A stretch of DNA of 28,006 bases from a virus. This document shows positions 21,644-22,131 of the stretch, piece after piece. The first letter of the stretch is position 1. Each line of letters begins with the position of its first letter. Below the pieces are notes generated by a model. That model ran no database searches and was not told the DNA's origin. It saw only the letters and a list, made by a program, of their open reading frames with translations. The position numbers and the translations under genes are program-made. The stretch lies in IMG/VR virus record IMGVR_UViG_3300046751_000325, positions 1 to 28,006 of that record. One strand, 5' to 3'.

Positions 21644-21732
21644 CAATCCTTCTTCTTAGCAGTGACTAACATCTAGCTAACTGCTGTCCTCTGTGTTTGC
21701 TAGATGCAGTAAGCTATCATTAAGAAGGATTG
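21644..21732 (-). promoter_or_regulatory. Symmetric nested inverted repeat masking the terS ribosome site
   Basis: Outer arms CAATCCTTCTT (21644-21654) and AAGAAGGATTG (21722-21732) are perfect 11-bp complements. Inner arms CATCTAGC (21670-21677) and GCTAGATG (21699-21706) are perfect 8-bp complements. The segments between outer and inner arms are both 15 bp and the loop is 21 bp, so the layout is 11-15-8-21-8-15-11. In the leftward mRNA the downstream outer arm contains the terS AAGGA. A competing stem, AGCAGT with ACTGCT (21658-21663 and 21680-21685), cannot coexist with the inner stem. Confidence 0.6.
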
Positions 21733-21765
21733 TTTAAACACTGGGGCTTATATCTCATTCACTAG

Positions 21766-21788
21766 CCCCCCTCTCCCTCTCTCCCCCC
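21766..21788. repeat. 23-bp pure polypyrimidine/polypurine tract
   Basis: Only C and T occur on the plus strand, with six C at each end and CCC in the middle, giving near mirror symmetry. On the minus strand it is a G-rich purine run that would lie in the terS leader. Triplex or quadruplex DNA is possible, as is slippage during sequencing. Confidence 0.6.
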
Positions 21789-21812: not shown

Positions 21813-21842
21813 TTGTCAATAGTGACGTAACGTAACTATACT
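21813..21842 (+). promoter_or_regulatory. Likely early rightward promoter
   Basis: TTGTCA (21813-21818) and TATACT (21837-21842) each match the bacterial housekeeping consensus at five of six positions, with an 18-bp spacer. The spacer holds GTGACGTAACGTAAC, one arm of an inverted repeat, as expected of an operator. Transcription would start near 21849, before the structured region. On the other strand a perfect TTGACA (21819-21814) overlaps this -35 box and points towards terS, with a poor -10 (CGTAAT, 19-bp spacer). Confidence 0.5.
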
Positions 21843-21858
21843 AATTACCCTACGTCAC
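21822..21858. repeat. Inverted repeat GTGACGTA-N21-TACGTCAC
   Basis: Perfect 8-bp arms at 21822-21829 and 21851-21858 flank a 21-bp spacer containing the -10 box. The left arm starts a 17-mer repeated with one mismatch at 23579-23595. The core TGACGT recurs twice more at 22279-22297. It may be an operator or an origin-binding site. Confidence 0.55.
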
Positions 21859-21951
21859 ACTGCATTTCTCTACTTGACAGGGCGTCCGAGCGGGCTGTCG
21901 TAAACCAAGCCCTATTGGTCTTGGCCCTTGCGGGCTTCCATCCCTGACGCA

Positions 21952-21986
21952 TTGGCGTATCACGGCATTGAGCCATGATTCGCCAA
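21952..21986 (+). other. 13-bp hairpin with two symmetric mismatches
   Basis: The pairing is TTGGCG, then ATCA, then GGC on the 5' side, with GCC, TGAT and CGCCAA on the 3' side. The blocks are separated by single T-T and C-A mismatches opposite one another, and the loop is ATTGA. Thirteen pairs in perfect register are very unlikely by chance. Confidence 0.7.
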
Positions 21987-22043
21987 GCAGGGTTCAAAGG
22001 CCACCCTTGCAACCCGCTAGCCTACCCCAGCGTACCGATAGAC

Positions 22044-22070
22044 ATTCAGCCCCTAAGATGTGGGCTGAAT
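22044..22070 (+). other. Perfect 9-bp hairpin followed by a short T-run
   Basis: ATTCAGCCC and GGGCTGAAT enclose a nine-base loop. AGTCTTTTAG follows, so weak intrinsic termination on the plus strand is possible. Alternatively it is one domain of the structured RNA. Confidence 0.65.
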
Positions 22071-22131
22071 AGTCTTTTAGTTGCGACTCAGTTGAGGGGG
22101 TCGCTCGCACGCTCCCGCAAAGTGCTTCGAC

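Follow-up and report, generated by a model that had tools for sequence, protein, structure and literature searches.

We found that the ribosome-binding site of the small-terminase gene terS, in the 28,006-nt stretch of viral DNA analyzed here (the window), would be covered by the outer stem of a hairpin in the terS leader. Comparison with related leaders shows a long-range stem on this site that appears to have been kept by selection in several lineages. We propose that the leader probably represses terS translation in cis and that translation of a short upstream open reading frame (uORF) relieves the repression. The two parts of this proposal differ in strength: repression by the stem is well supported by the comparison and seems likely, whereas the opening of the stem by uORF translation is put forward tentatively. 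The element belongs to a family of uncultured bacterial viruses whose habitat appears to be aquatic.

The inverted repeat occupies positions 21644–21732 of the window and has a layout of exactly 11-15-8-21-8-15-11 with both arm pairs perfect; a previous reading of the letters alone (the sequence-only reading) had described it in these terms, and had correctly placed the AAGGA of the 3' outer arm on the minus strand, five bases 5' of the terS ATG (21641–21639; Table 1). The gene heads a leftward run that includes the terminase large subunit, portal, and capsid genes. Folded as RNA, the 89 nt gave −32.3 kcal/mol (z = −4.9), which none of 200 shuffles equaled, and as single-stranded DNA they gave z = −3.6. 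The full 201-nt leader was less striking (z = −1.9). In the predicted mRNA, the mean pairing probability of the Shine-Dalgarno (SD) sequence in the window leader was 0.89. Short-loop inverted repeats of 11 bp are expected 0.95 times per shuffled 28-kb window, and four hits at two sites were seen; the outer arms had no second occurrence elsewhere in the window. Since repeats of this size arise about once per shuffled window, the mere existence of the hairpin is not unusual, and its weight would come from its position over the terS ribosome-binding site and from its conservation. What exceeds chance is this position, the recurrence in 49 of 50 arm-bearing contigs, and the outcome of the SD duplex test.

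Table 1. Features of the terS leader region in the window (all on the minus strand).
Feature	Position	Strand	Remark
terS, small terminase subunit, 123 aa	21270..21641	-	PHROG 2538, E 6e-13
3' outer arm, AAGAAGGATTG (mRNA)	21644..21654	-	holds the terS SD, AAGGA
3' inner arm, GCTAGATG	21670..21677	-	only the GCTA half kept, not the perfect stem
5' inner arm, CATCTAGC	21699..21706	-	conserved half is TAGC only
5' outer arm, CAATCCTTCTT (mRNA)	21722..21732	-	complement of the 3' outer arm; within the uORF
Putative 12-codon uORF, translation MRYKPQCLNNPS, then stop	21720..21758	-	position kept in relatives; modeled effect on the SD
G-run element, GGGGGGAGAGAGGGAGAGGGGGG	21766..21788	-	extremely conserved; predicted transcript start; possible uORF SD
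-35-like TTGACA of the predicted terS promoter	21814..21819	-	conserved in aligned leaders; -10 weak

In the duplex test, run on 27 leader representatives, the best pairing of the SD region with upstream leader sequence was compared with that in 300 shuffles of the same leader. The duplex of the window was the best of 301, and those of the window type, the L022 type, L120, L317, and L303 were all best or nearly best (p of about 0.003 each). The p values apply per type; related leaders were counted as separate through the choice of representatives and the shuffling within each type, so a p value combined over the types would be misleading. The arms of four families differ in sequence, yet each pair remains complementary and overlies the terS ribosome-binding site: window, CAATCCTTCTT/AAGAAGGATTG; L022, GAGTATCTCAATCCTTCT/AGAAGGATATGAGATGCTT; L317, AAACCTTTATCCTTCT/AGAAGGATAATAGGTTT; and L303, CATCACTCATTCCTT/AAGGAATGAGAGATG. 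Counting outward from the CC/GG, the window has A-U as its second pair where L303 has U-A, and A-U and C-G as its third and fourth pairs where L317 has U-A at both. Outward extension of the stem uses a complementary sequence particular to each family, and the stems of L022 and L303 include the start codon. The hiding of the terS ribosome-binding site claimed from the window alone is thus upheld for the outer stem, whose pairing survives through compensatory changes. In the c-type arms, an extra A forms an uncompensated bulge, and p was only 0.086; RNAalifold on MAFFT alignments of window-type leaders returned a weak structure (−9 kcal/mol) because this extra A was misaligned. The opposite strand forms an about equally good duplex, and fold z-scores likewise do not separate the strands, so strand bias cannot settle between RNA and DNA. 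Exact symmetry was not conserved among relatives; the outer stem matters and the symmetric layout does not.

We investigated the distribution of the element by scanning IMG/VR with three sequence variants of the outer arms. They occurred in 50 contigs, in 49 of which they lay directly upstream of terS, with the 3' outer arm no more than 7 nt from the aligned terS start. Further relatives came from three TerS searches, and folding covered about 160 distinct leaders, each taken from the G-run element to 30 nt inside terS. The promoters ahead of leaders longer than 100 nt bore TGACG palindromes, apart from a few that fell into no class, and all 39 leaders behind the GTGCGTTGACA promoter type were short (15–43 nt) and stemless. 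The stem was also missing from a group of 62-nt leaders and from several long-leader types (L049, L116, L117, L164, and L308), and SD cover was not significant in many long leaders, these five and L226 among them. Its absence from many relatives indicates that the stem is dispensable. A DNA similarity search of annotated phages gave no match, the element was absent from Pelagibacter phage Hodr, the closest annotated relative by protein, and no Rfam family matched. In addition, leaders longer than 200 nt (L268, L269, L281, L306, and L312) have a second hairpin, CGCACCT...AGGTGG(TTTT), ahead of terS, and L269 and L312 contain a CTCCTA(G) able to pair with the (C)TAGGAG of the SD.

The aligned leaders have in common a TTGACA, a spacer of 16–18 nt, a poor -10, and then the G-run element. 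From the placement of TTGACA and the G-run, we infer a transcript start near 21785 on the minus strand, which would put both arms inside the transcript. A start downstream of 21722, which would remove the upstream arm from the mRNA, therefore looks unlikely. A consensus scan of the minus-strand leader found no alternative sigma70-like promoter; it did not report the predicted terS promoter itself because of the weak -10. Just 5' of the -35, at 21821–21858, the window has GTGACGTAACGT and CTACGTCAC repeats that form palindromic TGACG/CGTCA sites, and relatives have one or two copies of TGACG-N-ACGTCA or a GTGCG motif at the same place. A phage regulator probably uses these palindromes as its operator. 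Farther upstream, the approximately 200 nt between the divergent operons (21880–22085) contain many short inverted repeats, no notable ORF, and no Rfam match, and are possibly a structured RNA.

The G-run element was found wherever the leader was complete or nearly so. At least 119 IMG/VR contigs, whose TerS proteins are as little as about 55% identical, have exactly this sequence upstream of terS; of 50 contigs checked, 49 contained it, once each. Variants retain two G-runs, as in G7 ACTTACA G7 (L226) and G7 AAGAGGGAA G7 (L030). Candidate functions are a packaging site, a quadruplex or R-loop primer, and the SD of the uORF; literature searches returned nothing direct on G-run elements in phages. 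A bolder idea, to which we give little credence, is that a modular control region is built around the ultraconserved G-run pair (G6-7, 7–13 nt, G6-7), which would serve both as the ribosome-binding site of the stem-opening uORF and as a nucleic-acid signal in its own right (e.g., a hybrid G-quadruplex/R-loop priming replication, or a packaging cleavage site), coupling TerS translation to that event. Contig ends near the G-run were considered as physical genome ends and set aside: in a sample picked by eye, which is not a fair one, they scatter over about 150 bp and do not fall on one base, and assembly breaks are as likely.

The sequence-only reading saw the stem and overlooked both the G-run element and the uORF running through the 5' outer arm. 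In the window, the uORF starts with an ATG 7 nt past the G-run and stops immediately after the 5' outer arm. Every window-type (CAATCCTTCTT) leader has an ATG 7 nt after the G-run, and where the frame stops early (CCCTAATG), its stop overlaps a new ATG (TAATG restart) whose frame crosses the 5' arm, such that the arm is crossed by either the original or the restarted frame. Modeling a ribosome on the uORF, by holding the translated region unpaired, lifted SD accessibility in the window from 0.11 to 0.43; in L228 and L011 it came to 0.65. An open frame of 12 codons is not unlikely by chance, and the uORF of the stem group is no proof alone; its peptide is not conserved. The best evidence for translated, terS-coupled frames behind the G-run comes from stemless relatives: in 23 leaders of 29–32 nt, a comparable uORF runs into terS, its stop and the terS ATG overlapping as ATGA. 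Three leader lengths are represented among these, and between them the uORF start position and the number of codons change in step. In six leaders of 62 nt, the uORF ends one base before the terS start.

Taken together, transcription would begin near the G-run, and once both arms are made, the outer stem would pair the terS SD with leader sequence some 80 nt upstream. Comparison and folding suggest that ribosomes would load poorly on terS in this state. A ribosome starting on the uORF just behind the G-run would cross the 5' arm and terminate at its end, and occupation of the arm would free the terS site, a case of translational coupling by RNA unfolding. TerS would then be made at a low level that depends on active leader translation. 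Because L317 and L303 have the stem and no uORF, relief by a uORF cannot be general.

The same two leaders lend themselves to a simpler account, in which the stem sets a constant low TerS level with no uORF-dependent relief. TerS is required in few copies, as such a dampener would provide, and pairing over the SD is conserved in L317 and L303 although neither has a uORF. However, a constant dampener leaves aside the kept position of the uORF behind the G-run in the window's group and the uORF–terS stop–start overlap kept in stemless sister leaders, and we consider it rather unlikely. Less probable still is that the stem serves RNase III processing or stabilizes the 5' end of the late mRNA and covers the ribosome-binding site as a side effect. 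Such elements usually take the shape of a long stem with interruptions at an operon's 5' end, and the closing stem of L268, L269, and L312 (about 11–15 pairs) leaves the terS SD uncovered; against this, the stem sits on the SD or start codon in the window's lineage, L317, and L303, and it follows the SD as sequences change.

It had also been suggested that the dyad acts as double-stranded DNA, for example as a packaging site bound by TerS. It adjoins terS, where packaging sites often sit, and its Watson-Crick symmetry holds on the opposite strand too. Nevertheless, near-identical hairpins accompany different TerS domains, and one domain also occurs hairpin-free: the L048 leader is identical to that of the window at 118 of 124 positions, whereas TerS residues 1–60 match at only 40 of 60, and the N-terminal domain of L272 matches that of L048 at 56 of 59 residues, yet the L272 leader is 62 nt long and stemless. 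L041, whose TerS shares 78% over residues 6–60 and 92% over the rest, has a 16-nt leader. This decoupling of leader and N-terminal domain indicates that the hairpin does not behave as the recognition site of that domain. Arm spacing also differs between families, and the G-run would be a better candidate for a packaging site; recognition of the dyad as DNA is thus very unlikely. Between L048 and the window, the leader and first codons are nearly identical and the remaining terS is about 70% identical, with the drop at about codon 10, which looks like recombination at the start of terS.

A two-state switch in which the inner stem competes with an AGCAGT/ACTGCT stem, as the sequence-only reading proposed, scarcely deserves consideration: both competing motifs are present in the window, which permits either stem, and another possible alternative (GACGAC/GTCGTC) occurs in 14 of the 26 distinct hairpins of the window's group, but ACTGCT is retained in only 6 of these, the 8-bp inner stem is perfect in 3, and its fourth pair is unpaired in 16 and varies without any bias toward pairing; only the TAGC/GCTA half is kept. 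In this comparison, both stems are incidental, and what persists of the proposed RNA switch limiting small-terminase output is its repressing outer stem with compensatory pairing. An RNA thermometer was judged unlikely, the leader being very stable (−36.6 kcal/mol).

Hidden ribosome-binding sites in phage leaders are already known, and terS is a newly described instance. In T4 genes e, soc, and 49, an mRNA helix covers the SD or start codon and lowers 30S binding (PMC3014915); the terS leader resembles these in having a helix over the ribosome-binding site of a phage gene, here predicted and conserved by compensatory change. The helix of T4 gene e forms in longer early transcripts and late transcripts escape it (PMC3014915), whereas the sole predicted terS promoter lies upstream of both arms and an ordinary transcript would carry the stem. 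In MS2 coat/lysis and Escherichia coli rpmI-rplT, ribosomes translating an upstream frame unfold a structure that conceals the ribosome-binding site downstream, and long stop–start distances are known (+52 nt in rpmI-rplT; PMC12548453). In the terS leader, the upstream frame overlaps the sequestering arm; here, the coupling is inferred, and the upstream frame would be a 12-codon leader without a conserved peptide.

Translational control of the small terminase has been little described; our literature searches on small-terminase leaders returned nothing direct and no earlier account of such control. The natural set of variants (stem with uORF, stem without uORF, uORF without stem, and neither) is suited to tests of how the TerS level is set, and the conserved G-run is a clear target for finding a packaging or replication signal of these phages. 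If the proposed mechanism is true, a widespread family of uncultured phages would limit a packaging protein by means of a swappable leader module.
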